Assembly (NCBI GenBank): GCA_024681475.1
Contig: JAILAT010000047.1
Span: forward strand, 21,635-85,634
Source of the DNA: Bacteroidales bacterium
Lineage (GTDB): Bacteria > Bacteroidota > Bacteroidia > Bacteroidales > P3
Reading direction: 5' to 3'
DNA: 64,000 bases
Shown here: in pieces, positions 13,760 to 62,874 of the stretch
Position numbering within the stretch: position 1 is the stretch's first letter
How the letters are laid out: each line of letters starts with the position of its first letter
Notes under the pieces: model-generated
Told to the model about the DNA's origin: nothing
Seen by the model: only the letters and a program-made list of their open reading frames with translations
The model's database searches: none
Translations under genes and position numbers: made by a program

Positions 13760-14782
13760 TTATTGTATCGGTGCCAGACTCATATTTCGTCCGGCAAGGC
13801 TGTCGTCGACGGTGAAACGCACCGTGCTGTAGCGTTCCTGCAGCCAGCGTTTGTTGCTGCCTCCGTAGCCTACAGCAGCGTTCATGTTTTCGCGCGAGGT
13901 GCGGACCTCCACAGCATGGATGTCTTTCGGCAACTGGTTTGCGGCGGCCTCCAGTGCGTCGTGTGCCATGGCACTCTCCACCAATTCACGAAACGACACA
14001 TGGAAGGGTCCCGCCAAATAGTCGGCGCCACTGATGAATCCTTCCGTTGGATGCAGACCCACACGCAACACCCTTACACCACCAGCTTCGAAAACCGGCA
14101 GCAGACGTTTAGTCCACTGCACCGCCTCGTCCAACGACAGGGGGGTGTATTCGCCACGTCGCCACAGGGCCTCCAGTGCTGTGTCTTTCACCACCAGCGT
14201 AGGATAGATACGGGTGTTGGTGGCGCCGGCGGCAACGATTTTCTGTGCTGTCTGCAGCGCCTTGTTGCTAGTGTCGCCCGGCAGGCCTATCATCATCTGC
14301 ATTCCCACCTCCATACCGCTGTGTTGTATGAGCTCCGCGGCGGCATAGACCTGCCGGGCTGTGTAGCCACGCCGCGTCTGCTGCAGCACCTCGTCGTCCA
14401 GCGACTGTACGCCCAACTCCACGTTGCCCACATGGTAACGTCGCAACAAGGCCACACGCTCCGCATCGATATAGTCGGGCCGCGTCGAGAGGGTTACACC
14501 TTCCACCAGGCCACGCTCCACATATTCGGACACCACACGCAGCAGCCGTTCCTGTTCCGCCAATGGCAACCCTGTGAAGGTACCGCCGAAAAAGCCTACC
14601 TGCACAACGCTGCCATCGCGCTGCGTAGCCAGGTAGGTCTCGATAGTTTTCATCACCGCCGCGTCGCTCAGCTGCTGGCTACTGCCAGTAATGACCGTCT
14701 GGTTACAGTAGATGCATCGGAACGGACAGGCCATTTCGGGCATGAAAATCGGGATGGTGCTATGTCGTTGCTTCAAGGACAT
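13760..14782 (-). CDS. Elp3-like radical SAM protein
   Basis: CPFRCIYCNQ cluster motif, GFFGGTFTGLP, STRPDYI, VELGVQSLDDEVL. Confidence 0.85.
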   Translation of the reverse strand: MSLKQRHSTIPIFMPEMACPFRCIYCNQTVITGSSQQLSDAAVMKTIETYLATQRDGSVVQVGFFGGTFTGLPLAEQERLLRVVSEYVERGLVEGVTLSTRPDYIDAERVALLRRYHVGNVELGVQSLDDEVLQQTRRGYTARQVYAAAELIQHSGMEVGMQMMIGLPGDTSNKALQTAQKIVAAGATNTRIYPTLVVKDTALEALWRRGEYTPLSLDEAVQWTKRLLPVFEAGGVRVLRVGLHPTEGFISGADYLAGPFHVSFRELVESAMAHDALEAAANQLPKDIHAVEVRTSRENMNAAVGYGGSNKRWLQERYSTVRFTVDDSLAGRNMSLAPIQ

Positions 14783-14796
14783 TATCAACACGGGAA

Positions 14797-14812
14797 TGTT
14801 ACACGTGAAACA
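14797..14812. promoter_or_regulatory. parS-like ParB-binding site
   Basis: tgttacacgtgaaaca = exact match to TGTTNCACGTGAAACA. Confidence 0.75.
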
Positions 14813-14938
14813 ATGCTATATAATATTATAAATCAATTCTCTAAATATTTTTTATTATCAACATCGTCGGCGAGGTTATCAACAGCGGTCGACGGGTATT
14901 TTTCTGCTTTCAACAGTCTCGGTCGTTTTATCAACCTT

Positions 14939-15439
14939 TCAATAGATTTTCAACACCTCGTAGGGGTTGCCAATCTGTTCGATGAAGCGGCGCATGTCAT
15001 CACCGCTGATTACCAGCGAGGCGCGGTTGTCGTTGGGGTGGAAACTGACCTTCCCGGCTTTCATCAGCTGCTCGTCGACGAAGAGCGTCACCTCGTGCTG
15101 CTCGTCATTGACCAGGCAGAAGAGACTCACCGAGCCGGGTTTCACACCCAGATAACGCATCATGCGCTCGGGCGAGGCGAAGCTGAGCTTGCCTTGGTGC
15201 AGCATCTTCTCCAGCGAATGAATATCCATCTCGTGACGGCTGTCCATGATGACCAGATAGTGCCGATTGCCTTTGTGGTTGCGAAAGAAGAGATTCTTGC
15301 AGAGGGTAGTGCCCTCGCCACGATAGAACTGTGCGGCAATCTCGATGGTCGGTGCCTCGGGATGCTCATAGTAGTCGAAGGCGATGTCCATCGCAGCCAA
15401 GGTGTCGTAAACACGCTGCTGTCCAATCATGCTGCTCAT
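14939..15439 (-). CDS. Prolyl-tRNA editing protein ProX / YbaK family aminoacyl-tRNA deacylase
   Basis: TLCKNLFFRNHKGNRHYLVIMD...GVKPGSVSLFCLVND...FHPNDNRASLVIS. Confidence 0.88.
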   Translation of the reverse strand: MSSMIGQQRVYDTLAAMDIAFDYYEHPEAPTIEIAAQFYRGEGTTLCKNLFFRNHKGNRHYLVIMDSRHEMDIHSLEKMLHQGKLSFASPERMMRYLGVKPGSVSLFCLVNDEQHEVTLFVDEQLMKAGKVSFHPNDNRASLVISGDDMRRFIEQIGNPYEVLKIY

Positions 15440-16383
15440 TTGATGATGCCCAGTTCGCGCGACATGTCCAGCATCCTCACTATCGGCTTGCGCGCCTTTT
15501 CAATCACTTCGTCGCTCAGCGTAATCTCGGGCGTCTCGTCGCGCAGACAGCGGTACAACTTCTCAAGCGTGTTCATCTTCATGAAAGCGCAGTCCGAGCA
15601 GGCACATTCGCCATTATTGGGCACGGCGATGAACTCCTTGTCGGGATTGTTGTTGCGCATCTCGTAAAGTATGCCCGTCTCTGTGGCCACGATGAAACGT
15701 TTCTTATCCGAGGCGTTGATGAATTTCAACATCGCCTTGGTGGAGCCGACAAAATCGGCCACCTGCAGCACAGCGGCATTGCACTCGGGATGCGCCACTA
15801 CCAGCGCGTCGGGATTTTCCATCTTGAGGTTGAGGATGGTGTCGGCCTCCATGGCGTCGTGCACAGTGCAGACACCGTTCCACAGCAACATCTCACGCCC
15901 GGTCTTGTTGTTGATATAGCCACCGAGATTCTTGTCGGGAGCGAAGATGATTTTCTGATCCTTGGGCAAGGCGTTGATGAGCTGCTCGGCATTGCCCGAC
16001 GTGCAGATGAGGTCAGACAGAGCCTTCACCTCGGCGGTGCAATTGATGTAGCTTACCACGATATGGTCAGGATGCTCGGCTTTGAAACGCGCCAAGTCCG
16101 GGCCGGCACACGATTCTGCCAGCGAGCAGGAAGCCTCCAGGTCGGGCAGCAGAACTTTACGCGTAGGATTCAGGATCTTGGCAGTCTCAGCCATAAAATG
16201 CACGCCACAGAAGACAATGATAGGCGCGTCGGCCTGTTGCGCCTTCTGGGCCAACTCCAAACTGTCGCCTATATGGTCGGAGAGGGCCTGTATCTCGTCA
16301 ATCTGATAGTAATGGCCCAATATGATAGCGTTCTTCTCAGCTTTGAGACGCTTTATTTCATTTATCAGCTCTGTATTTGTCAT
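15436..16383 (-). CDS. nadA: Quinolinate synthase
   Basis: AIILGHYYQIDEIQALSDHIGDSLELAQ; FCGVHFMAETAKIL; conserved Cys residues. Confidence 0.95.
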   Translation of the reverse strand: MTNTELINEIKRLKAEKNAIILGHYYQIDEIQALSDHIGDSLELAQKAQQADAPIIVFCGVHFMAETAKILNPTRKVLLPDLEASCSLAESCAGPDLARFKAEHPDHIVVSYINCTAEVKALSDLICTSGNAEQLINALPKDQKIIFAPDKNLGGYINNKTGREMLLWNGVCTVHDAMEADTILNLKMENPDALVVAHPECNAAVLQVADFVGSTKAMLKFINASDKKRFIVATETGILYEMRNNNPDKEFIAVPNNGECACSDCAFMKMNTLEKLYRCLRDETPEITLSDEVIEKARKPIVRMLDMSRELGIIK

Positions 16384-17353
16384 CGCTTTGTTTATTTGGT
16401 TATCAAAGATTGTGGCCAGTAAATCGCCCATTACAGTTTAACTACTGGAAATAAGAGAGTTACCGACTATTAAACTAATACCTTACAAAATGCAAAGATA
16501 CAACAAATCCACCAATTATGCAAAGCATAATTCCAGAATTTGATTGTTGCCGGTTGCCCGACTGTTTTCAACATTCAAATTATTATTTCTATTCCTTTAT
16601 TTTAATAAAATTCTTTTTCTTAATTTTAATGCGTGTTCATTTGTTGATAACCCTTGTTTTCACTGCAGTTTGGAATAATTTTATTCACGTCAATCACCCC
16701 CTTTATCACCGTCTAAAACCATCCCTTTCACCATTTTCCAATGTTATCAACATATAGTGAATTGTCCATTGAACACGCTTTTGTTGATAGCCTTTCCACG
16801 ACTGAAAACTTCCATTTTTCTGTGTAAAAACGGCTGAAATTTTTGGCCTTTTTTCACTCTCAACAACTCCGTTTTTTTATCCCCATTTTCTCCACTCAGT
16901 TATCAGTTCCATTTCAACCAAGTAATTAACAATTTGCCTTGATTATACAATTGTAATTAAAGTAACAGTTTGATTTATAATATATAATTTTTTCTCCTAT
17001 TGTTGATAAGTTTTACTTCTGTAAGATTTCACAGTTCTAATTTTTCCGCTAGGGAATACATTCCCGAGAAGGGTTGTCATTACCCTCTTTTTCTCTTTTT
17101 TGTCTGCGTTAGGATTGTGAATTTGGGTTCTCTCCCCCACCCCGAAGGTTGTCCACAATTTTACAATTCTAAAAACTATGGGTAGTAAAAAGAGGACTTG
17201 TATGTTATCAAAAGTATGAATATCAGTCGACTATGGTGTATTTGTTACAATTGGTGATAACTATTTGATAATTTTTGCGGTGAAGTGAGCCCTCTTTTTA
17301 TTATTTATTGTATTTTTGCACATGTTTTTGTTGTAAAATCAAAGCTAAACATC
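16384..17353. other. Candidate chromosomal replication origin (oriC): AT-rich divergent intergenic region with DnaA-box-like motifs
   Basis: TTATCAACA or its complement at 16642-16650, 16744-16752 and 17001-17009; TGTTGATAG 16782-16790; TTGTCCACA 17149-17157. Gene orientation switches here from mostly minus (left) to mostly plus (right). Confidence 0.6.
16491..16500 (-). promoter_or_regulatory. Putative -7 element for nadA
   Basis: tgcaaagata = TATCTTTGCA on the minus strand. Confidence 0.5.
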
Positions 17354-17800
17354 ATGGAAAAACAGATAATTCCCATCGCTTCCGACCATGCCGGATATGA
17401 GCTGAAAGAGAAGGTGAAAGAACATTTGGCTGCCAAGGGCTATGAGATGCGCGATTTCGGCACCTTCACGTCAGACAGTGTTGACTACCCCGATTTTGCC
17501 CATCAGGTGGGCACTGTTATCAACAAAGGCGAGTATCCATTGGGTATCGTGATCTGCGGCTCGGGCAACGGCGTGCAGATGACCGTGAACAAATACCCCA
17601 ATGTGCGCTGCGCGCTCTGCTGGTGCGAAGAGATCGCCAAGCTGGCCCGCCAGCATAACGACGCCAACATCCTTTCGATGCCTGCCCGCTTCATCGACGA
17701 GGCTACCGCCATGTGCATCGTCGACGCTTTCTTCACCACCTCTTTCGAGGGCGGCCGTCACCAGCGCCGTGTGGAGAAAATCAACAAACTGCTCTCCTAA
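17354..17800 (+). CDS. rpiB: Ribose 5-phosphate isomerase B
   Basis: PIASDHAGYELKEKVKEHL; YPDFAHQVG; GIVICGSGNGVQMTVNKYPNVRCALCW. Confidence 0.95.
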   Translation: MEKQIIPIASDHAGYELKEKVKEHLAAKGYEMRDFGTFTSDSVDYPDFAHQVGTVINKGEYPLGIVICGSGNGVQMTVNKYPNVRCALCWCEEIAKLARQHNDANILSMPARFIDEATAMCIVDAFFTTSFEGGRHQRRVEKINKLLS

Positions 17801-21102: not shown

Positions 21103-22224
21103 ATGAACACCATCGTAATCAAGCCTGTGCAAAGCCGGCGCGACCTCAACAAGTTCATTGCTTTTCCCAACAAGTTGTTCAAGAATGCCCCCACCTACGT
21201 TCCTCCCCTGAATTCCGACGAACGCAAGCTGCTGACCAAGAAGAATCCATCGCTGGAGCATGCCGACTGCCAGACTTTCTTGGCGTTGCGCGACGGCAAG
21301 GTGGTGGGCCGTGTGGCCGCCATCATCAACTACTCGGTCAACGAGCGCTGGGAGAAGAAGGCGGTGCGTTTCGGCTGGTTCGATTTCATCGATGATTTCG
21401 AGGTGTGCAAGGCGCTGTTCGACACCGTGGTGGAGTGGGGCAAAGCCAAAGGCATGACGGAGATAGAGGGTCCCTTCGGCTTCACCGATATGGACAAGGA
21501 GTGCTGGGTCATCGAGGGCTTCAACGAGCGCCAGAACATGAGCACACTCTACAATCCCGAATACTACATCGACTTCATCCAGAAGCTGGGCTGCACCATC
21601 AAATGCCGCTGGCAGCAGTACCGTATGCCGGCCAGCCAGCCCATCCCCGACAAGGTGGAAAGGCTCAACGGCCTTATCATGAAGAAATACGATCTCAAGC
21701 TGCTGCACTTCAAGTCGCGCAAAGAGATATACCCCTATGCTCACAAATTTTTCAACACGCTGAACGGCGCTTTCAAGGACCTCTACGACTTCGTACCCCT
21801 GACGGAGAAGGAGATAGATGTCTACATCAAGGAATATTTCCCCTTTGTGAACCTCGAATTTGCCAATTTTGTGGTCGACAAGGACGACAACCTGGTGGCC
21901 TTTGGCCTCAGCATTCCGAGCCTCACCGAGGCATACAAGAAAGCCAACGGACGCCTCTTCCCCTTCGGATGGTATCATCTGCTACGTGCTTTGAAACATT
22001 ACGACACTATCGACTTGCTGCTCAACGGTGTGCACCCCGACTGGCAGAAACGTGGCGTACACTCCATCTACTATGCCGAGATGAACCGCAACGCCATCAA
22101 GAACCATGTGACGTGGGCCTACACCAACCCGCAAATCATTGGCAACGAGGCAGAAAAGTTGTGGGGCACCACATACGATGTCACCCCGCTGATGACCCGT
22201 GCGGTATTCGGGAAAAGCATCTGA
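21103..22224 (+). CDS. GNAT-like N-acetyltransferase family protein
   Basis: TFLALRDGKVVGRVAAIINYSVNE...GFFGF-like GPFGFTDMDKECWVIEG; next to spt in the same direction. Confidence 0.6.
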   Translation: MNTIVIKPVQSRRDLNKFIAFPNKLFKNAPTYVPPLNSDERKLLTKKNPSLEHADCQTFLALRDGKVVGRVAAIINYSVNERWEKKAVRFGWFDFIDDFEVCKALFDTVVEWGKAKGMTEIEGPFGFTDMDKECWVIEGFNERQNMSTLYNPEYYIDFIQKLGCTIKCRWQQYRMPASQPIPDKVERLNGLIMKKYDLKLLHFKSRKEIYPYAHKFFNTLNGAFKDLYDFVPLTEKEIDVYIKEYFPFVNLEFANFVVDKDDNLVAFGLSIPSLTEAYKKANGRLFPFGWYHLLRALKHYDTIDLLLNGVHPDWQKRGVHSIYYAEMNRNAIKNHVTWAYTNPQIIGNEAEKLWGTTYDVTPLMTRAVFGKSI

Positions 22225-22312: not shown

Positions 22313-24421
22313 ATGGGTACACGAAAGAAAAAAAAGCTTGTCATTGTCTTGATTGCCGTGGTGTTGGTAGCAGCCATTGGCACCGGTCTGTGGTTTTGGC
22401 TACGGCCTAATAAAGTCAGCACCGAAGACTATCAGCCAATAGAAGAGTTCAAGGAAGCCTACGAGGCGTTGGAGACCAAGCAGAAGGCTCCCGACTACGA
22501 CTTGGAGAAGACCATTCGTGTCATCAATAGTATGGAAGTGGCTCAGAGTCAGTCCAAAGACTTCGACCAGTTTCTTGAATATCTGGCTCGTCAGGACTAT
22601 GAGGGCGTAGCCCCCGAAGTCCTTGAGGCCAAGAAGAAGATGATGCCTGTGCTGCAGGAGATCTATCTGCTGCAGAAAGAGCACGACGAGCTGAACTTCT
22701 GGACGCCGCTGGTGCAGCAGCTGTGTACCGACCCGGCAGCCAGCAACATGGTCCGCGACGCCTTCACAGGTCAGGGCATCGGCGCCATGCTGCAGTTCAA
22801 CGTTGTGGCCAACCAGATTTTCGAGCAGTACAAGAAAGAGCAGGAGCTCAAGGGTGAGCTGAAGCGAAAGATACAGGAAATCCGCAAGGACTATCTGGCC
22901 TATGTCGAGGAATTCACCCCTGTCTATGTGAAATATATGACAGAATGGGACAAGCTCTGCATCGACAAGGACAAAGCCTATATCGACCTCTACACCAACC
23001 AGCCCGACGCAGTGGTGAAGGACTGCGAGAAGATTCTGGCCAACTATCCCACCAACCGCGAAGCCCTGCTGCTCAGAGCTTTGGGCCTCATCCTCTCCAG
23101 CAAGCAGCACGACAGCCAGGAGATGTTCAACTTTGCGGGTATCTCCGACACCAACATCCTCACCCAGCGCGACATCATGCTCACCGAAGCACAGCAGACC
23201 CTCAACTATTATATGGATCTCTACCCTGCGCAATCGGCACCGGCGCTGGTGGTACAGGGCTTGTTGCTCGACTATCAGGGCGACCACCAGCAGGCCTTCT
23301 CACACTACGAGCAGGCTGCCGTGGAGTACCCTCGCCAGTCGGAGCAGCTCACCGACCTTCTCAATTGCTATCGCTCCCGTACCTACCTCAACAACAGTCG
23401 TGAAGGCCTCTACCTGCTGACGCTCTACAAGTCCACCATGGAAGGCTTCGGCTTCTTCAGCCCCAACCTCATCAAGGCGGCCTACTACGACCAGGTGGGC
23501 GACTACGACAACTGCAGCAAGGAGATATACAACCACTTCTTCCGCCGCAGCAACCAGACCTCCTACGACTGCCTGCTGGCCGACATGCGCCTCTGCGAGG
23601 AGACTCTGCCCATCAGCTTCAACCGTCTGCTGCCCGAGCGCTGCTACATCGATGTCACCTTCGGCAAACAGGACAAGCTGCTGGGCCTGTCGTCCGACGA
23701 CCAGCAAATCAAGGTCACCGTCGAGAACCGTTCCGACCACGATTTGGAGAACCTGCGCGTGTTCCTTTGCATCCATTTCACCGATATGTATGCCGATGAC
23801 TACCATGTCGTCAAGCTGCCCACCTTCAACCGCATCACTGTGCGCTCCAAGGCTGATGTCAGCAACATTGATCTGAACTATATGGACAAGAACTTCGACC
23901 ATATTTCCAGTGTCCGCGCCATTGCGATGACCGACAATAGCATCTGCTGGATCGACAACGTCTACAACTCCACCGACAATATCGACTACAACCCGGCACA
24001 CCAGATCGATTTTGCACAGCTCTCAAAGGCTTTGGACAGCAACGCCATGCGCTCGCGCGACGCCTATCTCTCCGCCATCAAGAAGAGCGACGAGACATTC
24101 CGTCAGTCCATTTTGCACAACACCCGTGTCACCTCGTCGAAGGACAGCGGCTTGCTGAAAAAGACACGCAACTATATCTCCATCGAGCTGCCCCGCGAAC
24201 TCATACTCCTGAATCCCACTTTCAACTGGCAACAACAACTTTCGCCCACCGAGAACTACCTGAAAGGCAGCTATATCCACCTCTCGTTTGACACCGAGAT
24301 ACCCGAAGGCCACCGCCAAAAGCTTTACATCGCCACGCCCTATCTCAACTATGCCGTCACTATCCAGAACGCTGGTGGCCGATTGGCAGTGGTCGAGGTC
24401 AAGAATATGGCTGCAAAGTAA
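22313..24421 (+). CDS. Membrane-anchored large protein of unknown function
   Basis: 702 aa; N-terminal TM segment KKKLVIVLIAVVLVAAIGTGLWFWL, helical TPR-like middle. Confidence 0.75.
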   Translation: MGTRKKKKLVIVLIAVVLVAAIGTGLWFWLRPNKVSTEDYQPIEEFKEAYEALETKQKAPDYDLEKTIRVINSMEVAQSQSKDFDQFLEYLARQDYEGVAPEVLEAKKKMMPVLQEIYLLQKEHDELNFWTPLVQQLCTDPAASNMVRDAFTGQGIGAMLQFNVVANQIFEQYKKEQELKGELKRKIQEIRKDYLAYVEEFTPVYVKYMTEWDKLCIDKDKAYIDLYTNQPDAVVKDCEKILANYPTNREALLLRALGLILSSKQHDSQEMFNFAGISDTNILTQRDIMLTEAQQTLNYYMDLYPAQSAPALVVQGLLLDYQGDHQQAFSHYEQAAVEYPRQSEQLTDLLNCYRSRTYLNNSREGLYLLTLYKSTMEGFGFFSPNLIKAAYYDQVGDYDNCSKEIYNHFFRRSNQTSYDCLLADMRLCEETLPISFNRLLPERCYIDVTFGKQDKLLGLSSDDQQIKVTVENRSDHDLENLRVFLCIHFTDMYADDYHVVKLPTFNRITVRSKADVSNIDLNYMDKNFDHISSVRAIAMTDNSICWIDNVYNSTDNIDYNPAHQIDFAQLSKALDSNAMRSRDAYLSAIKKSDETFRQSILHNTRVTSSKDSGLLKKTRNYISIELPRELILLNPTFNWQQQLSPTENYLKGSYIHLSFDTEIPEGHRQKLYIATPYLNYAVTIQNAGGRLAVVEVKNMAAK

Positions 24422-26176: not shown

Positions 26177-29100
26177 GTGATGCCAACTGAAAGTAACATA
26201 GTTGATAAACTGGACCGTTTCATACGGAAATACTACAAGAATCGCCTGCTGAAGGGCGCCTTGCTCGCCGTCGCGTTGCTGGTGGGGCTCTATCTGGTGA
26301 TGGTGCTGTTGGAGCATTTCGGTTGGTTTGGCACGGGGGTGCGCACGCTGCTGTTCTGGGGCTTCATCGCCGCCACCGTTGCGGTGTTGGCCTACTATGT
26401 GGTCACCCCTTTGTTGAAAATGAGGGGCTTGGGCCGACGTATCTCCTACGACGAGGCGGCGCGCATCATCGGTGAGCATTTCCCCGAGGTGAAGGATAAG
26501 CTGCTGAATCTCTTGCAGCTGCAGAGCTCGCAAGCGGGTGGCGCCACACCCGACGGCGCCAGCGCCGAGCTGCTGCGCGCCAGCATCGACCAGAAGACCG
26601 CCAGCCTCTCGCCGGTGCCGTTCCAGAAAGCCATCGATTTGTCGAAGAACCGCCGCTATGTGAAATATGCCGCCATCCCGCTGGTGCTGCTGGTGGCAGG
26701 ATTGCTGATAGCGCCGTCGCTCATCACCGACCCGTCGCAGCGTCTGCTGAACCACAACACCCAGTATGAGCGTCCTGCGCCGTTCACTTTTGTGCTGGAG
26801 AACAGCGACTTGACGGCTACGCAGCAGGACGACTACACGGTGCGTGTGGCGCTCGAAGGCGACGCCATCCCTAAGGATGTGTCGATTGTCGTCGAAGGCA
26901 CCACCCTGCGGATGCAGCAGGTCGACAAGCTGCACTACAGCTACACTTTCAAGAATATACAGCGCTCGCAGCGTTTCCATTTCTCCGCTGTGGGCGTCAA
27001 CTCAGCAGAGTACGAGGTGGAGGTCAACCCCAAGCCCGCCGTGGTGGCGTTCCAAGCCACGGTGACCTATCCCGCCTACATAGGCCGCGACGCCGAAACC
27101 TTCAGCAACAACGGCGACCTGGTGGTGCCCAAAGGCTCGCGTATTGCCTGGAGTTTCCAGACCAAGGATGCCGACTCGCTGGCCTTTCTGGTGGGCGACA
27201 GCAACGCATGGCGCGCCATGGCAATGCAGCCCAACGCCAACGGCCGCACCACCCATACGCTCCGCGCCAACACGTCGTTCCAGTATGCCTTCTGCGTCAG
27301 CAACCGCTACGTGGACTCCGACACCATAGGCTATGCCGTCTCGGTCATCGAGGATGCCTATCCGATGATAGTGGTGATGTCCATGACCGACAGCACCGCG
27401 CCCGACAGGCTCTTCTTCCGTGGCAATATCAAGGACGACTACGGCTTCGCCAAGCTGGAGTTCGTCATCGAGCGCACCAATGTCCGCGACACGTCGCAAC
27501 ATTCGCGCGAGCTGCGCCAGATAGCCATCACCGGCGAGGCATCGCAGGAATTCTACTATTCGCTTGATTTCTCGACGCTGGAGCAGGAGCCCGGTGACGA
27601 ATTCAAATACTGGTTCCGCGTGTGGGACAACGACGGCGTGAACGGCAGCAAGATGACGGAATCGAACAGTTTCGCCACCCATGTGCCCACCGAAGAGGAG
27701 ATTGACGACATCATCCAAAGCCGCTCCGACGACATACGCCAGCAGGGCGAACTGTCGATGAACGAGCTGCGCAAGCTGCAGGAGGAAATCAACGACCTGA
27801 TGCGCAAGCTGGTGGACAAGAAAGAACTCACCTGGCAGGACAAAAAGCAGCTGGAGGAGCTGCAGAAGAAGCAGCAGGAGGTGAAGGAGATGCTGCAGCA
27901 GATGCGCAACCAGATGCAGGAAAACAACCGCATGGAGGAGAAATACCGCGAGCAGAGCGAGCAAATAATCGAGAAACAGAAGGAACTCGACAAACTCTTC
28001 GACCAGGTGATGAGCGATGAGATCAAGGAGATGATGAAGGAGATGGAGAAGCTGATGAACGAGATGGACAAGAAAAAGGTACAGGAGGAGCTGGAGAACC
28101 TGAAAATGAAGAATGAAGACCTCGAAAAACAGCTGGATCAGAACATCGAGCTGATGAAGCGTCTGGAGCTGGAGAAGAAGGTGGAACAGGCTGTCAACAA
28201 GGCTGAAGAGCTGGGCAAAAAACAGGCTGAGCTGTCCGAGAAAAGCGAGCAGAAAGGCGCCGACAAGGAGCAGCTGATGAAGGAACAGCAGAAGCTCTCC
28301 GAGCAGTTTCAGGAGCTGAAAAAGGATATCGACCAGATACAGAAAGACTACAAAAACTTGTCGGACCCGCAGGATTTCAAAGTCAGCGAGGAACTCCAGA
28401 AAAGCATCGAGCAGAATCAGCAGAACGCCCAGAACCAGCTGAACAAAGGCAAGCAGAAAGACGCCTCCAAGTCGCAGAAAGAGGCCGCAGAGAAGCTGGA
28501 ACAGCTCTCCGAGCAGCTGGCCCAAGAGCAGATGGACATGGAACAGGAGGAACTCTCTGAGGATGCTGAGGAGGTGCGCCGATTGCTGAAAAACCTTGTG
28601 CAGCTCTCCATCGACCAGGAGTCGCTCATCGGCACGCTGAATACAGTCAGCATCAACGACCCCAAATACCAGCAGATTATCGTCGACCAGAACAAGATCA
28701 AGTCCGATTTCCGCAACGTCGAGGACTCGCTGCGCGCCCTGGCACGTCGCCAAATCAAGGTGGCCGCCATGGTCAACAAGGAGCTTGGGGAGGTGAACAG
28801 CAACATGAGCAAGTCGCTCTCCGGCCTGCTGGAATTCAACCAGTCGTTCTATGCCAACTACAGGAACACACAGTCGGCACGCTCGATGCAATACACCATG
28901 ACCTCGCTGAACAATCTGGCCCTGGTGCTGGCCGAGTCGCTCGACCAGATGCAGAACCAGATGCGTCAGAACCAGCAGCAGAAGAAGAGCGGCAGCTGCA
29001 AGCGGACAGGCAAAAAGAGCGGCAGTTGCAGCAATCCCGGCAAAGGCAAGCCGTCGCCCAAATCGATGCGGCAGATGCAGGAGGAGCTCAACAAGCAGAT

Positions 29101-29605
29101 GAAACAACTCAAGGAGGAGCTCGACAAGAAGGGTAACAAGCCAGGCTCACGCACGAAGATTGGCGACCACAACACGATGAGTTCCGAGTTTGCCCGCATG
29201 GCGGCACAGCAGGAGCAGATTCGCCGCATGATGCAGGAATATGGTCAGGAATTGAAGCAGCAGAACGCCGGAAACAGCAAGCTGGCCAAGGAGATAGACG
29301 AGATGATGAAGCAGATGGAACAGACCGAGACAGACCTCGTCAACAAGACCATCACCAAGCAGACCATCAACCGTCAGCAACAGATACTCACCCGTCTCCT
29401 GCAACACGAGAAAGCGGAGATGCAGCGTGAGAAGGAGGAACGTCGCGAAAGCCGGGAGGCGCAAGAGCAATACCAGCCTTCACAGGGCGATCTGGAAAAA
29501 TATCAGCGTCTGCAGGAGCAGAACATCGAACTTTTCCACACCACGCCTCCCAACATGAATAATTTCTACAAAAACAAGGTGAACGGCTATTTCTTCAAGT
29601 TCTAG
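26177..29605 (+). CDS. DUF4175 family membrane/coiled-coil protein
   Basis: 1142 aa; two N-terminal TM helices; long Q/E/K-rich coiled coil. Confidence 0.8.
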   Translation: MMPTESNIVDKLDRFIRKYYKNRLLKGALLAVALLVGLYLVMVLLEHFGWFGTGVRTLLFWGFIAATVAVLAYYVVTPLLKMRGLGRRISYDEAARIIGEHFPEVKDKLLNLLQLQSSQAGGATPDGASAELLRASIDQKTASLSPVPFQKAIDLSKNRRYVKYAAIPLVLLVAGLLIAPSLITDPSQRLLNHNTQYERPAPFTFVLENSDLTATQQDDYTVRVALEGDAIPKDVSIVVEGTTLRMQQVDKLHYSYTFKNIQRSQRFHFSAVGVNSAEYEVEVNPKPAVVAFQATVTYPAYIGRDAETFSNNGDLVVPKGSRIAWSFQTKDADSLAFLVGDSNAWRAMAMQPNANGRTTHTLRANTSFQYAFCVSNRYVDSDTIGYAVSVIEDAYPMIVVMSMTDSTAPDRLFFRGNIKDDYGFAKLEFVIERTNVRDTSQHSRELRQIAITGEASQEFYYSLDFSTLEQEPGDEFKYWFRVWDNDGVNGSKMTESNSFATHVPTEEEIDDIIQSRSDDIRQQGELSMNELRKLQEEINDLMRKLVDKKELTWQDKKQLEELQKKQQEVKEMLQQMRNQMQENNRMEEKYREQSEQIIEKQKELDKLFDQVMSDEIKEMMKEMEKLMNEMDKKKVQEELENLKMKNEDLEKQLDQNIELMKRLELEKKVEQAVNKAEELGKKQAELSEKSEQKGADKEQLMKEQQKLSEQFQELKKDIDQIQKDYKNLSDPQDFKVSEELQKSIEQNQQNAQNQLNKGKQKDASKSQKEAAEKLEQLSEQLAQEQMDMEQEELSEDAEEVRRLLKNLVQLSIDQESLIGTLNTVSINDPKYQQIIVDQNKIKSDFRNVEDSLRALARRQIKVAAMVNKELGEVNSNMSKSLSGLLEFNQSFYANYRNTQSARSMQYTMTSLNNLALVLAESLDQMQNQMRQNQQQKKSGSCKRTGKKSGSCSNPGKGKPSPKSMRQMQEELNKQMKQLKEELDKKGNKPGSRTKIGDHNTMSSEFARMAAQQEQIRRMMQEYGQELKQQNAGNSKLAKEIDEMMKQMEQTETDLVNKTITKQTINRQQQILTRLLQHEKAEMQREKEERRESREAQEQYQPSQGDLEKYQRLQEQNIELFHTTPPNMNNFYKNKVNGYFFKF

Positions 29606-32215: not shown

Positions 32216-32683
32216 ATGGCTATCACGTTCACCAACCAAAATGTGAATTTTTCACTGAAAAATAAGATGCTCATCAAAAAATGGCTCAAGCAGCTTGTTG
32301 AGAGTTATGGCAAACGGATGGGTGATGTCGCTTATTCGTTTTGCGACGATGATTACATCCTTGACGTGAACCGCACCTATCTTGACCACGACACTTACAC
32401 CGACATCATCACATTCGACTATGTCGAGGACAATCTCATTTCGGGCGACATACTGATTAGCATTGAGCGCGTGGCCGATAATGCAGCACAATTTGGGGTT
32501 ACTTTTGAGCAGGAGCTGTGTCGTGTTCTCAGCCATGGAGTGCTCCATCTGCTGGGCTTTAAGGACAAGAGCAAGCGCGATGCCGCGACGATGCGAAACA
32601 AGGAAGAAGAGGCCTTAAAGCTCTTGGAAACAGTACGTAAGGCCAATTGTTCCACGTGGAACACTATTGTCTACCATCGCTAA
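32216..32683 (+). CDS. ybeY: Endoribonuclease YbeY
   Basis: NRTYLDHDTYTDIITFDY and LSHGVLHLLGFKDKSKRD metal motif. Confidence 0.95.
   Translation: MAITFTNQNVNFSLKNKMLIKKWLKQLVESYGKRMGDVAYSFCDDDYILDVNRTYLDHDTYTDIITFDYVEDNLISGDILISIERVADNAAQFGVTFEQELCRVLSHGVLHLLGFKDKSKRDAATMRNKEEEALKLLETVRKANCSTWNTIVYHR
32648..32663. promoter_or_regulatory. parS-like palindrome inside the 3' end of ybeY
   Basis: tgttccacgtggaaca, perfect 16-bp palindrome matching TGTTYCACGTGRAACA. Confidence 0.65.
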
Positions 32684-32708
32684 TTTGCACATTGGGAGAA
32701 CAGGAATC

Positions 32709-34589
32709 ATGCAGTTTGAACCTTATGAAATAGTCGTTGTCGGCGGAGGCCATGCAGGAGCGGAAGCGGCTTCTGCTGCCGCCCATCTGGGCTGCAAGAC
32801 GCTGCTCGTCACCCAAAATATCGACACCATCTGTCAGATGTCGTGCAATCCTGCAATGGGTGGCGTGGCGAAAGGACAGATAGTCCGCGAGATCGACGCT
32901 CTTGGCGGCGTCTCGGGTGTGATGACGGATATGGCCACCATCCAGTTTCGCATGCTGAACCGCTCCAAGGGTCCTGCCATGTGGAGCCCCAGGGCGCAGT
33001 GCGACAAGGCGCTCTTCTCACGCAACTGGATTCATCAGCTGCAGAACACACCCAATCTGGCAATCTGGCAGGACGAGGTGGTGGACCTCCTTGTCGAGGG
33101 TGGTGCCGTCAGCGCCGTTGTGACACGGATGGGCATCACCATTCCCGCCCAGGCAGTGGTGCTCACCAACGGTACTTTCCTGAATGGTACCATCTTTATC
33201 GGTGAGACCTCTTTTGGCGGCGGCAGGATAGGGGAGAGGGCCGCCGTTGGATTGTCCGACAGACTGCGCGACATGGGTTTTGAGGTCGAGAAGCTGAAGA
33301 CCGGCACCCCTGTACGTATCGACGGCCGTACCATCGATTTTTCGCAGCTGGAGGTGCAGCCTGGCGATGAGGAGCCCATGCATTTTTCTTTCGACCCGAC
33401 AGTGCCAAAACTGAGCGAGCAGGTGCCCTGCTACATCGCCAACACCAACGAGCGGACCCACGACATTCTCCGTACAGGTTTCTCGCGATCACCGATGTTC
33501 ACTGGCCGTATCCAAGGACGCGGTCCACGCTACTGCCCTTCCATCGAGGACAAGATTGACCGTTTTGCCGGCAAGGACCACCATCAGCTGTTTGTGGAGC
33601 CGGAAGGACTCCGGGTCAACTCCTATTATCTCAACGGATTCTCCTCGTCGTTGCCGCTGGAGGTGCAACTTGAGGCTCTCAACAGTATTCGTGGCTTCGG
33701 GCAGGCGCAGATATTCAAGCCCGGCTACGCCATAGAGTATGACTATTTCCCTCCTACGCAGCTGACGTATACCCTTGAGACCAAGAAGGTTGAGAACCTG
33801 TATTTTGCAGGTCAGATTAATGGCACTACAGGTTATGAGGAGGCGGCATGCCAAGGTTTGATGGCAGGCATCAATGCAGCGTTGAAACTACGCGGACAGC
33901 AACCTTTTGTGTTGCGTCGCACCGATGCCTACATCGGCGTCCTTATTGACGACCTGGTGACGAAAGGTGTCGACGAGCCCTACCGCATGTTCACCTCCCG
34001 TGCTGAATACCGCATCCTGCTACGGCAGGACAATGCCGACGAGCGCCTGACGCCCCTTGCTCATGCGATAGGCTTGGCCTCCGACGCCCGCATGCGTCGT
34101 GTCGACGAGAAGAGAGGTTATGTTGCACAGCTTGAAGAGACTTTCCGCCAAGTCTCCGTGCTGCCGTCGGAAGTCAACGGTTTCCTGGATGAGCACCAGT
34201 CGGCCCCCATTCAGCAGAAGCTGCGTCTGCACAATCTGCTGCTGCGTCCTGAACTCAATATGGCGATGTTGTTGCCACTCTCTGACGAGGTGAAGAATTG
34301 TGTCGACCATTTTCCTGACGACCTACGCCAGGAGGTGTGCGACGAGGCGGAGATACTGATCAAATATAGCCGCTATATCGAGAAGGAGCGTACCGTGGCA
34401 GAGAAGATTTTGAAATACGAGGAGCTGCCCATTCCCGCCCATTTCGACTACCAGCATTTCCAGGCGCTCTCGTTCGAGGCGCGCGAAAAGCTGTCCTCGT
34501 TGCGTCCCGTCACCATCGGTCAGGCCAGCCGTGTCAGCGGCGTGTCGCCGGCCGACATCTCGATCCTGCTCATCGCGCTAGGCTTCTAG
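32709..34589 (+). CDS. mnmG: tRNA uridine-5-carboxymethylaminomethyl modification enzyme
   Basis: YEIVVVGGGHAGAEAASAAAHLGCKTLLVT...CNPAMGGVAKGQIVREIDALGG. Confidence 0.96.
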   Translation: MQFEPYEIVVVGGGHAGAEAASAAAHLGCKTLLVTQNIDTICQMSCNPAMGGVAKGQIVREIDALGGVSGVMTDMATIQFRMLNRSKGPAMWSPRAQCDKALFSRNWIHQLQNTPNLAIWQDEVVDLLVEGGAVSAVVTRMGITIPAQAVVLTNGTFLNGTIFIGETSFGGGRIGERAAVGLSDRLRDMGFEVEKLKTGTPVRIDGRTIDFSQLEVQPGDEEPMHFSFDPTVPKLSEQVPCYIANTNERTHDILRTGFSRSPMFTGRIQGRGPRYCPSIEDKIDRFAGKDHHQLFVEPEGLRVNSYYLNGFSSSLPLEVQLEALNSIRGFGQAQIFKPGYAIEYDYFPPTQLTYTLETKKVENLYFAGQINGTTGYEEAACQGLMAGINAALKLRGQQPFVLRRTDAYIGVLIDDLVTKGVDEPYRMFTSRAEYRILLRQDNADERLTPLAHAIGLASDARMRRVDEKRGYVAQLEETFRQVSVLPSEVNGFLDEHQSAPIQQKLRLHNLLLRPELNMAMLLPLSDEVKNCVDHFPDDLRQEVCDEAEILIKYSRYIEKERTVAEKILKYEELPIPAHFDYQHFQALSFEAREKLSSLRPVTIGQASRVSGVSPADISILLIALGF

Positions 34590-34633
34590 GAGAGGGTAGG
34601 GGAGACGCCCCTTTCCCCCCGTTTTATTCCCCT

Positions 34634-34649
34634 CGTTTCACGTGAAACA
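34634..34649. promoter_or_regulatory. parS-like site
   Basis: cgtttcacgtgaaaca, 15/16 to TGTTTCACGTGAAACA. Confidence 0.65.
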
Positions 34650-34657
34650 ATGTTTGT

Positions 34658-34769
34658 AACTATCATGGTCTATGATAGTTGGGTGCTGATTTTGTTGATA
34701 ACCCCCTTTTTGGAGGCTAAAATGGGAGGGAAAAGAATCCATCGCGGTCTAAATATCATAGACCATGAT
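34658..34769. repeat. Nested palindrome and 15-bp inverted repeat in a convergent intergenic region
   Basis: aactatcat-ggtct-atgatagtt (34658-34680); atcatggtctatgat (34662-34676) is inverted to atcatagaccatgat (34755-34769). Confidence 0.75.
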
Positions 34770-36313: not shown

Positions 36314-36386
36314 GACTCAGTAGCTCAGCAGGTAGAGCACATCCCTTTTAAGGATGGGGTCCTGGGTTCGAGCCCCAGCTGGGTCA
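36314..36386 (+). tRNA. tRNA-Lys (anticodon TTT)
   Basis: GACTCAG/CTGGGTC acceptor, CATCC-CTTTTAA-GGATG anticodon arm, GGTTCGAGCC T arm. Confidence 0.95.
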
Positions 36387-36405
36387 CCGAATATTAACGC
36401 TTGCA

Positions 36406-36478
36406 GACTCAGTAGCTCAGCAGGTAGAGCACATCCCTTTTAAGGATGGGGTCCTGGGTTCGAGCCCCAGCTGGGTCA
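36406..36478 (+). tRNA. tRNA-Lys (anticodon TTT), identical second copy
   Basis: Sequence identical to 36314-36386. Confidence 0.95.
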
Positions 36479-36480
36479 CA

Positions 36481-58816: not shown

Positions 58817-58966
58817 CTGCTGAGCACAAAAACATTGAGCTCCCGCTGATCCATTGGTATTGTTATTATTATGGATAAAAAAGTAAGGTTGCTGCAGCCA
58901 AAAATAAAATCAAGACAATGAAACGTTAAGCCGACGGCTTCAGGGACATGGGGATTACCGGAGGAT

Positions 58967-59209
58967 ATGTCGAAAACCACACTCCGAAAGTATAAAGAGG
59001 ACGAAAGCGACTATCATACTTGCAGTTGGCTGACCACCTCGGAATTCCGTGAATGTATCGACCACGCTAACAAAGCTGCGGAGGAACTCGAGGTAACCTT
59101 CTCCCCTCGGTTCGACCCGCGCCCAGATTACGAGCGCATCTACCAGTATATGAAGGAAGGTGACGAGGCAGGAGAACCGTCAAGAATTGTCTTTTGGTTC
59201 GACAATTGA
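58967..59209 (+). CDS. Small hypothetical protein
   Basis: 80 aa ORF MSKTTLRKYKEDESDYHTCSWLTTSEFRECIDH... Confidence 0.5.
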   Translation: MSKTTLRKYKEDESDYHTCSWLTTSEFRECIDHANKAAEELEVTFSPRFDPRPDYERIYQYMKEGDEAGEPSRIVFWFDN

Positions 59210-59258
59210 AAAATATTTCGTATTTTTGCACTTTAAATACAAAGTAAATAACAATAAT

Positions 59259-61070
59259 ATGGCAGAGAAATATAATGTTGAGAACAAGCCATTAGAGCAA
59301 GTTCTTGGTTTTATCAAATCGGGTCAAATTGCCATCCCGGAAATACAAAGGCCATTTGTATGGAAACCCGTACAAGTTCGAGATTTGATTGACTCCTTAT
59401 ATATGGGTTACCCTACAGGTTATCTTATTGTGTCTCAAAGCCCATCGATGAAACTAAAAGACGGCACCACATCATCGGGAAAGCAAATAATGATAGATGG
59501 CCAACAGCGTGTAACTGCATTGATGACTGCCATTGTCGGGACGGAAGTGTCTGATTCCAACTTTAAAAAGCATCGAATAATAATTTCCTTCAATCCGCTT
59601 GCTCCTGATGATGATGAAGAAAAATTCAAAGTGCAAACACCTGCAGTAATAAAAGATAAGCGATGGATTGCTGATATTGCAGATGTGTTTAAAACGGATT
59701 TTGACAGTTTTGAATTTGTTCAGAACTACTGTGCTGAAAACAATGACATATCCCCCAAGGAGTTGAATAAAATCATCATGCGTTTGATAGATATCAAAAA
59801 CAGACAAATTGGTATCATCAAGCTCAATGAGGATGTCACAATCGATGAAGTTACAGAGATTTTTATACGTATCAACAGCCAAGGGACAAAACTCAACCAA
59901 GCAGATTTCGCCATGTCACGTATGGCAGCAAACGAGAAGTATGGTGGGAATGCATTACGTAAGGCAATTGAATATTTCTCTCATTTGGCCATCTCTCCGG
60001 ATTGGTACAACGATATGTGCAAAGATGAGGGATTTATGCAGACACCATTTGCAACAAAGATGTCGTGGTTGCGTAATGACAAGGAGGCAATTTATGATCC
60101 CGACTACAATGACATCTTGCGAGTTTCTTTCATGTACAAATTTGGGCGTGCAAAGATGAAAGACCTCGTTGCGTTGCTTGAAGGACGCAATTTTGAAACC
60201 AGAGAAAATGAAGAATGGATTTCTGAAGAAACGTTTCAAAGATTGCAAGAAAGCGTACTGGAGTTTATGAACCAGTATAGTTTTACTAACTTTATCCTTG
60301 CAATCAAATCAGCAGGTTTCATAAGCACAAAACTCATCAACTCACAGATGACTTTGGACTTTGCTTATACGCTATATCTCATCCTGCACAATGACCCGCA
60401 AATCGACAAGTCTCAAATCAAGCATTATGTTCAGCGTTGGTATCTGCTTTCAACGCTAACAAGCCGTTATATTACATCCCCTGAAAGCGTGATGGATTAT
60501 GATATAAAGCGTATCAAAGAGCGTGGATTCCTGGCATATTTTAATGAAATAGAACCTGCTGAGTTGTCAGAGACGTTTTGGGTGACACAACTTCCCCAGA
60601 GACTTGAATCAGCGTCTGTTAGCAGCCCATTCCTAAATGTTTTCTTTGCAGCGCAGATATTTGGCAACGATAACTCGCTATTCTGTAAAGGTATTCGAAT
60701 TGGGGATTTAATAGATATTGTAGGAGATGTACACCATATCTTCCCGAGGAAATATCTTATGCACAATGATATTAAGGAGCGTAACCGTTATAATCAGATA
60801 GCCAACTTTACATATCTTGACACAGTCGTAAACAAGCTTATATCTGATGACGCGCCCAATGTATATTTCCATAAAGCAGAGGAGGCTTGCAAAAATGGGG
60901 AACCCCTTTACGGAAATATTGACAATATGAATGAACTAAAAGAAAACCTAAAAACCAACTGCATACCAGAGAATGTCAGTGACATGAGTTTTGAGGATTA
61001 TGACAACTTCTTGGATATTCGTCGCAAGATGATGGCGGGGAAAATACGACAGTATTACTACTCATTATAA
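59259..61070 (+). CDS. DUF262 (GmrS-like) protein with C-terminal HNH-like motif
   Basis: IPEIQRPFVWKPVQVRDLIDSLYMGYPTG; IDGQQRVTALM; FIRINSQGTKLNQADFAMSR; DVHHIFPRKYL. Promoter-like tcgtatttttgcac just upstream. Confidence 0.88.
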   Translation: MAEKYNVENKPLEQVLGFIKSGQIAIPEIQRPFVWKPVQVRDLIDSLYMGYPTGYLIVSQSPSMKLKDGTTSSGKQIMIDGQQRVTALMTAIVGTEVSDSNFKKHRIIISFNPLAPDDDEEKFKVQTPAVIKDKRWIADIADVFKTDFDSFEFVQNYCAENNDISPKELNKIIMRLIDIKNRQIGIIKLNEDVTIDEVTEIFIRINSQGTKLNQADFAMSRMAANEKYGGNALRKAIEYFSHLAISPDWYNDMCKDEGFMQTPFATKMSWLRNDKEAIYDPDYNDILRVSFMYKFGRAKMKDLVALLEGRNFETRENEEWISEETFQRLQESVLEFMNQYSFTNFILAIKSAGFISTKLINSQMTLDFAYTLYLILHNDPQIDKSQIKHYVQRWYLLSTLTSRYITSPESVMDYDIKRIKERGFLAYFNEIEPAELSETFWVTQLPQRLESASVSSPFLNVFFAAQIFGNDNSLFCKGIRIGDLIDIVGDVHHIFPRKYLMHNDIKERNRYNQIANFTYLDTVVNKLISDDAPNVYFHKAEEACKNGEPLYGNIDNMNELKENLKTNCIPENVSDMSFEDYDNFLDIRRKMMAGKIRQYYYSL

Positions 61071-61425
61071 AACTTGAATAAGTCTGCGCTATGACTATCC
61101 GCCAATTATAACAGACATTCATCAATATGGAGTCGGCACCTTGCCCTTTGACCGACAGGCATGTTAGTGCTGGCTATCAGCAGCAGAGTGGCGGATATAT
61201 CGACTGAGCCAAACGGGAGGGTGTAGAGGTGGATTATCACAAGTGCTCTCCTTCCCAATACTGGCACCTGATTACCTTCTGCGACAGTAAGAATCCCGAC
61301 GACAAATTCCGGTCGGTCGTGTGCGGTGAACTTATCTTTTGGATGGCAGAAGTTCTCGGTTGTGTCGACAACCAGGAGATGGACCGACTTGTTTTTTCGC
61401 GGAAGAACTGTTGACATTAAGAGCA

Positions 61426-61640
61426 TGATGAATATAGATATTAAGGATATGAAAAAAACAAAACATGGTATTCAGAAAAGGCTTAGTGACGCTTTTTCAC
61501 AAGCAGATGATGTTTTGTTAGAAGTGTCGGATACGATACCATTCAACTGGGTTGTTAGTGCTATCTATGGAAAATTGAAATCATGCAAACATAAACACAT
61601 AGTCTATTTAAAGTTCGGAAACAAATTATACACATACTAA
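61426..61640 (+). pseudogene. Possible C-terminal remnant of a CdiA/MuF-type polymorphic toxin
   Basis: KKTKHGIQKRLSDAFSQADDVLLEVSDTIPFNWVVSAIYGKLKSCKHKHIVYLKFGNKLYTY; resembles toxin C-termini by recollection only. Confidence 0.35.
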
Positions 61641-61731
61641 AAAACCAGCCTTGTGGGACTGGTGGCGGTAGGAGTCTCTTGTGAGGCTCTAACCGATTGC
61701 AAAAATATAAAATATTTCTGATACAGCAAAT

Positions 61732-61974
61732 TTATTTTTTTCTTTTCATAATTTTTTGTGTCTCTTCAAGTGTGGTAAAGCGGCATTCATAGCCTTTTTC
61801 TGTTTGATTTACATATATATATATAGGAAATCCATAGATAGTCCGTTTTAATGCCTCGCTTGTAGCATTGTATGTAGGATAGCCGTCAAATTTGCCTACA
61901 TAAGTGACAATATCAAGGTTTTTTGACTTTGCAAACCGTTCCGCTGCTTTTCGTGTTTTTTCATTTGCTTCCAT
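61732..61974 (-). CDS. Small hypothetical protein with Shine-Dalgarno-like AAAGGAG
   Basis: 80 aa ORF; minus strand reads aaaggagttgtacggatATG. Confidence 0.5.
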   Translation of the reverse strand: MEANEKTRKAAERFAKSKNLDIVTYVGKFDGYPTYNATSEALKRTIYGFPIYIYVNQTEKGYECRFTTLEETQKIMKRKK

Positions 61975-61993
61975 ATCCGTACAACTCCTTTCT

Positions 61994-62323
61994 GTCTGTT
62001 TTATTGTTCTAAAACGATAATTTTTGTTGCTTCTATCTCAAACCATTCTCCAATTGCAGCATCGCAATTTATCATAGGAATATCCAAAACATGTCCGTCC
62101 GTAAATCTATCACAATAAAGAATTGCAATGTGTTCTAAATATTCGTCGTTACTTCCCTTTTTTCTGTATCTTAGAGCATATTTATCTCCAAGTGTTGTTT
62201 CTTCATAAGGAAGGCGAATTGAAAGCTTGTTCGACCTGCTCTAATTCGTAATCAAAGCCGTGCTGTTTGGCGGCACGTTTTAATTCAATAAGGTACTTTT
62301 TAATCTCTTTCCAGTCAGACATA
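61994..62323 (-). pseudogene. Frameshifted small protein, possibly immunity-like
   Basis: Reads MSDWKEIKKYLIELKRAAKQHGFDYELEQVEQAFNS... then in another frame KLSIRLPYEETTLGDKYALRYRKKGSNDEYLEHIAILYCDRFTDGHVLDIPMINCDAAIGEWFEIEATKIIVLEQ*. Confidence 0.5.
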
Positions 62324-62502
62324 TCCGTAAAGTTTGGAACAGAGAATTGTGGAGTAGAAACAAGCAGCGTTCTTTGCTCACTGATAGCTGCAAGTAACTA
62401 GGTGACATAATGAGTTCTTTCTCATCGTTATCAGCGGTATATCATGTGTTTCAAGAAATGGCATTATTACCATGGTTTGAAAAGAATATTTTTTGAGCGA
62501 GG

Positions 62503-62585
62503 ATTCGTTGGAAAAAAGCGTTATTATGGCAAAAAGTCGTTGGAAAAATGACGTAAATTTTATAAAAAGTCACTGGAAAAATAAC
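62503..62585. repeat. Degenerate ~33-bp direct repeats (three units)
   Basis: attcgttggaaaaaagcg... / agtcgttggaaaaatgacg... / agtcactggaaaaataac. Confidence 0.65.
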
Positions 62586-62589
62586 AAAT

Positions 62590-62655
62590 CCCACACTGCG
62601 TTCCTTGTGTGGGGCTATAGAGAGTTGGCCTCTCCGAGGCAATAAATAGAAGTCC
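62590..62655 (-). repeat. 66-bp structured repeat, copy 2 (inverted)
   Basis: Reverse complement matches 56875-56940 at ~60/66 positions. Confidence 0.88.
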
Positions 62656-62874
62656 CTATTGGTTGTTTCACGGCGTTACGGATTGGGTGATGACAAAAGA
62701 TTGCTTCAAATAGTGCTATGTGGTAAAAAAAACGTACCTTTGCATTTGGAGGAATGGGCGAAAAATTGGGGATGGACCAGGTAATGTTGCTGTTATACAG
62801 TGCGATACGAGCCCTTTTTCTCCTTGCGCAGGGGCGCAAATTATTATTTGTTTGAACGAAAAAATGAGACGATT

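Follow-up and report, generated by a model that had tools for sequence, protein, structure and literature searches.

A candidate chromosomal replication origin in the nadA–rpiB gap of a Bacteroidales bacterium

Replication origins distant from dnaA are common in Bacteroidetes, according to a report on Prevotella intermedia OMA14, whose chromosome I has a predicted oriC that is rich in DnaA boxes, lies at a GC-skew transition and is far from dnaA (PMC4755523). In a Hi-C study of gut bacteria, including Bacteroides caecimuris and Muribaculum intestinale, origins were placed using GC skew together with parS clusters and were supported by read coverage; they did not coincide systematically with dnaA (PMC10197239). 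In the bipartite oriCs of Helicobacter pylori and Bacillus subtilis, two box clusters split by coding DNA flank dnaA, with unwinding DNA located beside the boxes (PMC8235120).

Here, we analyzed a stretch of 64 kb (hereafter, the window) from a gut-type Bacteroidales bacterium, in which a preliminary description had proposed the gap between nadA and rpiB as a candidate oriC. Our analysis of the sequence and its relatives indicates that this gap is very probably the chromosomal origin of replication. The locus resembles the oriC of P. intermedia OMA14 and other Bacteroidetes origins in DoriC in its box-rich region, its skew transition and its distance from dnaA; unlike the nadA/parS setting described below, the passages of that report drawn on here do not name neighboring genes or describe a link to parS (PMC4755523). 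It shares parS marking and separation from dnaA with the gut origins located by Hi-C and parS, for which we found neither a sequence-level account nor gene neighbors in the passages of the paper drawn on here; both are given below (PMC10197239). As in H. pylori and B. subtilis, two box clusters are split by coding DNA and predicted unwinding DNA lies beside boxes, but the clusters flank ybaK–nadA instead of dnaA, and the second subregion is putative (PMC8235120). The dnaA gene of this genome is on another contig (C11), outside the window, and the locus therefore lacks the dnaA-flanking arrangement of a dnaA-linked bipartite oriC. As off-dnaA origins were previously reported in Bacteroidetes, the origin belongs to an already known type; what is new is a well-anchored origin together with a neighbor rule usable in fragmented genomes. 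Our literature search found no link between oriC and nadA for Bacteroidales, which is weak evidence, as few subscription papers were covered and DoriC may list such sites; a match to nadA in an Elizabethkingia paper proved to be the name of an author.

The nadA–rpiB gap and its DnaA boxes

The gap spans 970 bp and is bounded by the start codons of two divergent genes, nadA (ATG at 16383, minus strand) and rpiB (ATG at 17354, plus strand). Its GC content is 32–35%, compared with ~54% in the surroundings. Both genes were confirmed by Pfam, and the AT-rich non-coding gap between them had been described correctly, with exact borders. The main features are as follows.

16384 to 17353, no strand: proposed oriC, main box-bearing intergenic region (9 boxes against 1.05 expected; conserved in 34 gaps)
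15436 to 16383, minus strand: nadA, quinolinate synthase (Pfam NadA, 405 bits)
17354 to 17800, plus strand: rpiB, ribose-5-phosphate isomerase B (Pfam LacAB_rpiB, 195 bits)
14939 to 15439, minus strand: ybaK-like aminoacyl-tRNA editing gene (Pfam tRNA_edit, 101 bits)
16492 to 16500, minus strand: probable nadA promoter −7 element TATCTTTGC (9-mer in 19 of 34 gaps, against 0.4 expected)
17311 to 17318, plus strand: probable rpiB promoter −7 element TATTTTTG (GTA..TTTGCA near rpiB conserved in the alignment)

The left side is minus-strand, as had been stated, whereas the plus-strand bias reported on the right gives way to mixed orientation past ~25 kb. An Rfam search detected two tRNAs only and no RNA match inside the gap; the tRNAs are tRNA-Lys(TTT) genes with identical Rfam scores, located 17 bp apart at 36314–36479. 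Elsewhere in the window, large ORFs without a Pfam match were found at 22313–24421 (702 aa), 27002–29107 (701 aa; strongly AT-skewed and containing tandem repeats of 21 bp) and 21103–22224 (373 aa). Type IX secretion domains were present in window proteins and are one basis for the assignment to Bacteroidales. An AT-rich island at 58900–62700 (~39–40% GC versus 54%) carries a GmrSD-type restriction endonuclease gene (59160–61070), followed by ~1.6 kb containing short ORFs only. This island may be a recently acquired defense island.

At up to one mismatch, the gap contains nine DnaA boxes, including three exact copies of TTATCAACA. These are listed below, together with a further box inside rpiB.

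16565 to 16573, plus strand: DnaA box TTTTCAACA, one mismatch; lies across the proposed unwinding element from the core box, with six possible DnaA-trios after it
16642 to 16650, minus strand: core DnaA box TTATCAACA, exact; adjoins the proposed unwinding element; conserved core motif TGTT(A/C)AT...GTTGATAA
16744 to 16752, plus strand: DnaA box TTATCAACA, exact
16782 to 16790, minus strand: DnaA box CTATCAACA, one mismatch
16877 to 16885, plus strand: DnaA box TTATCCCCA, one mismatch
17001 to 17009, minus strand: DnaA box TTATCAACA, exact
17149 to 17157, plus strand: DnaA box TTGTCCACA, one mismatch
17205 to 17213, plus strand: DnaA box TTATCAAAA, one mismatch
17252 to 17260, minus strand: DnaA box TTATCACCA, one mismatch
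17517 to 17525, plus strand: exact DnaA box within the rpiB coding sequence; may be coincidental

Each of the three exact motifs named in the preliminary description (16642, 16744 and 17001) is an exact box, and its sites at 16782 and 17149 were also correctly placed. By contrast, the near-matches assigned to 17203 and 17253 were off by 2 and 1 bases (17205 and 17252), and the list omitted the one-mismatch boxes at 16565 and 16877 as well as a cluster at 14782–14955.

A comparison with shuffled background had been proposed as a check, along with the objection that box density might be no higher than in other AT-rich DNA. When the gap was shuffled 5,000 times with dinucleotide composition preserved, the number of exact boxes averaged 0.05 with a maximum of 2 (3 observed), and that of boxes with up to one mismatch averaged 1.05 with a maximum of 6 (9 observed). 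AT-rich (<42% GC) 1-kb stretches elsewhere in the window held 0–2 boxes at the latter threshold, compared with up to 10 at the gap. Across the 2.38 Mb of this genome that was analyzed, 49 exact TTATCAACA sites were found, 7 of them inside 2,744 bp here (Poisson p ~3e-13; ~3e-10 when corrected for the genome-wide scan), and no second comparable cluster was seen. Together, the shuffles, the AT-rich stretches and the genome-wide cluster count answer the density objection. The gap is an above-background cluster of DnaA boxes in non-coding DNA, as is required of an oriC. The low GC content of the gap relative to nearby DNA might have suggested chance enrichment of an AT-rich motif, but counts were at background in the dinucleotide shuffles, in AT-rich stretches elsewhere in the window and in the 1 kb downstream of nadA (see below). 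The shuffles and the conservation of the boxes already refute this explanation, to which we assign practically no likelihood.

Predicted unwinding element and a second cluster with parS-like sites

Helix stability was predicted by a nearest-neighbor scan of 50-mers over the whole 64 kb. The three least stable 50-mers (starting at 16579, 14808 and 16942) all lie within two box clusters, the gap itself and a second cluster to its left.

16579 to 16628, no strand: proposed DNA-unwinding element, T-rich, least stable 50-mer of the 64 kb
14808 to 14857, no strand: second least stable 50-mer, overlapping the ends of a parS-like site and of the box at 14855
16942 to 16991, no strand: another AT-rich stretch of low stability in the gap, ranking third among the least stable 50-mers

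In most relatives, the nadA–rpiB gap contains the stretch that ranks lowest or second lowest in stability at the locus, and a T-rich tract is found beside the GTTGATAA box. The conserved core in the alignment consists of the T-rich tract, then TGTT(A/C)AT, then GTTGATAA, corresponding to 16579–16650 in the window. The proposed unwinding element lies to the left of TGTTGATAA, the same orientation that the DUE has relative to R1 in E. coli. On predicted stability, the gap thus appears to combine an AT-rich unwinding element with an adjacent DnaA box, as expected of an oriC.

We also considered whether the locus contains a BUS, defined as a DnaA box, a spacer of 0–16 bp and at least three DnaA-trios. 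The box at 16565 resembles the described BUS in having a box, a 6-bp spacer and six possible trios, which run into the proposed unwinding element; unlike it, trio runs across relatives were no longer than in shuffles or fell on the wrong flank of the boxes (PMC8287927). We therefore do not claim a BUS.

The second cluster is located ~1.7 kb to the left of the gap, between a radical-SAM gene and the ybaK-like gene. It contains five boxes at up to one mismatch, three of which are exact, and neither count was reached in any of 5,000 dinucleotide-preserving shuffles. Using the parS consensus TGTTTCACGTGAAACA as in PMC10197239 and allowing up to two mismatches, we detected four parS-like sites in the 2.38 Mb analyzed, three of them in the window, while the reversed control pattern gave no match in the same search.

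14782 to 14955, plus strand: second cluster of DnaA boxes, all in plus orientation; those at 14782, 14855 and 14876 are exact, those at 14928 and 14947 have one mismatch
14797 to 14812, plus strand: parS-like site TGTTACACGTGAAACA, one mismatch, inside the second DnaA-box cluster
32648 to 32663, plus strand: parS-like site TGTTCCACGTGGAACA, two mismatches, at the 5' end of mnmG/gidA
34634 to 34649, plus strand: parS-like site CGTTTCACGTGAAACA, one mismatch, directly after mnmG/gidA

The parS-like site at the ybaK junction was present in all 19 relatives that have ybaK there, mostly with a DnaA box within a few tens of bp, and many family members repeat the order of parS followed by a nearby box at the junction. 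In 9 of the 11 other genomes searched, a parS-like site was found 2–63 kb from nadA. A ParB gene is located on contig C13. The locus and genome thus appear to hold both parts expected of a ParABS centromere, namely an origin-proximal parS palindrome and a gene for ParB.

The genes ybeY and mnmG/gidA occupy 32216–34701, 15 kb to the right of the gap, with an exact DnaA box at 34693. mnmG/gidA frequently neighbors origins. This region, with parS-like sites flanking mnmG, is an origin-proximal neighborhood.

Conservation of the locus and GC skew

The divergent order of nadA, gap and rpiB was found in the 20 family members that were read completely, as well as at two further loci (L002 and L003). 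For comparison of the gaps, we used 34 distinct sequences, including that of the window, after removal of duplicates. Exact boxes numbered 49, where 1.2 were expected; at up to one mismatch there were 222, where 29 were expected, and at least four boxes of the latter kind were present in 32 of the 34. A k-mer scan of the same gaps that was naive to DnaA returned GTTGATAA/TTATCAAC as the most enriched 8-mer. Conservation of the gap, another check originally suggested for the candidate, thus extended to both gene order and box enrichment. The other enriched word of the scan was TATCTTTGC, which sits at the gene-proximal ends of the gaps and which we take to match the TAnnTTTG −7 promoter element of Bacteroidetes. 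From its sequence and position, it looks like the −7 element of nadA and rpiB, and TATTTTTG is the probable −7 element of the rpiB promoter.

In a wider sample of 30 Bacteroidales genomes, one from each other family, we examined 1 kb on each side of nadA. The upstream segments contained 30 exact boxes (1.3 expected), compared with 2 (1.1 expected) in the downstream control. Half of these families had no exact box upstream of nadA, and in two genomes (G240 and G392) the sole close pair of boxes was located away from nadA. As an exact box was found in only half of the 30 families, the link with nadA is common but not universal.

GC skew was determined in complete chromosomes of three other families (G282, G336 and G329) using twenty 20-kb samples each. 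Skew was negative to the left and positive to the right of nadA, with the expected sign in 18, 16 and 19 of 19 flank samples in G282, G336 and G329, respectively, and the opposite switch occurred about half a chromosome from nadA in all three. When the origin position was scanned every 10 kb with the terminus set opposite, no position performed better than nadA in any of these chromosomes, the switch being localized only to tens of kb. In G282, nadA and rpiB are adjacent, while in G336 and G329 boxes are present 5' of nadA and rpiB is far away. The latter two chromosomes weigh most, because the origin signal follows nadA even though rpiB sits elsewhere.

These two chromosomes also bear on the view that the gap is a long divergent promoter at which DnaA acts as a transcriptional regulator of nadA and rpiB, with the origin elsewhere. 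The genes are indeed divergent, and promoter-like −7 elements are conserved at both edges of the gap. However, G336 and G329 keep the boxes and the skew switch 5' of nadA with rpiB far off, and regulation leaves the skew, the parS-like sites and the unique box density unexplained, so that the chance of this view being correct is very slim.

The distance between dnaA and nadA was ~2.3 Mb in G282, 0.6 Mb in G336 and 1.3 Mb in G329. The earlier statement that dnaA is absent from the window, and that an origin remote from it is plausible, agrees with the placement of dnaA on contig C11 and with these distances. On the 4.8-Mb chromosome of G282, dnaA lies nearly at the terminus (L074, G282:C1 position 412, against L085).

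The contig containing the window (C22, 85.6 kb) showed a GC skew of −0.0099 both to the left and to the right of the gap, with its cumulative minimum at 27.5 kb of the window, ~10 kb to the right of the gap. In a 360-kb contig from the same family (G002:C2), skew turned only locally at the gap and was lower again 120 kb away; in G022, the 200-kb left flank had mostly negative skew, a weak fit, and the right side was almost lacking. As skew tracks gene orientation at the scale of a few tens of kb, the values from the window's own contig and from G002 neither support nor strongly contradict an origin at the gap.

The minimum at 27.5 kb would fit another possibility, in which the two clusters are origin-proximal, datA-like sites for DnaA titration and the true origin lies at a distance of a few to tens of kb, for instance in the region of mnmG/gidA. 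The parS-like sites flanking that gene (32648 and 34634) and the box at 34693 point the same way, and the resolution of the skew switch in complete relatives leaves room for such a distance. On the other hand, there is a single exact box near mnmG/gidA, and the conserved low-stability element with its box core sits in the nadA–rpiB gap. We give titration a slim chance.

Proposed mechanism and significance

The conserved gap and boxes, the sign change of GC skew at nadA in the three complete chromosomes, the parS-like sites and the lowest-stability DNA of the window all support the initial reading of the nadA–rpiB gap as an oriC, and from them we infer origin activity in this strain. In the proposed mechanism, DnaA encoded on the other contig would bind the TTATCAACA boxes in the gap, and the resulting complex would melt the T-rich element at a predicted point around 16579–16628, bracketed by the boxes at 16565 and 16642. 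Helicase would then be loaded at the melted element, and two forks would depart in opposite directions, with the putative nadA and rpiB promoters at opposite edges of the gap. Approximately 2 kb to the left, ParB may bind the parS-like site, which has its own DnaA boxes, and thereby mark and segregate the newly copied origin.

A two-part origin is conceivable but rather doubtful. In such an arrangement, the gap and the parS-bearing ybaK cluster would cooperate, with DnaA looping out ybaK–nadA, and initiation and centromere functions would form one 2.5-kb module. In several relatives, the ybaK-side cluster is minimal, consisting of parS and one box in <100 bp, and this bareness argues that the nadA–rpiB gap is the essential part.

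Searching for dnaA fails to locate the origins of Bacteroidales. The neighbor rule, which combines the 5' side of nadA with DnaA boxes and a nearby parS, can point to origins in gut metagenome assemblies that are too fragmented for GC skew to work. It would be useful for coverage-based estimates of growth rate, for genome finishing and for choosing Bacteroidales origins to test. Furthermore, with parS conserved next to DnaA boxes, the locus provides a simple setting in which to ask how replication initiation and segregation are coupled.
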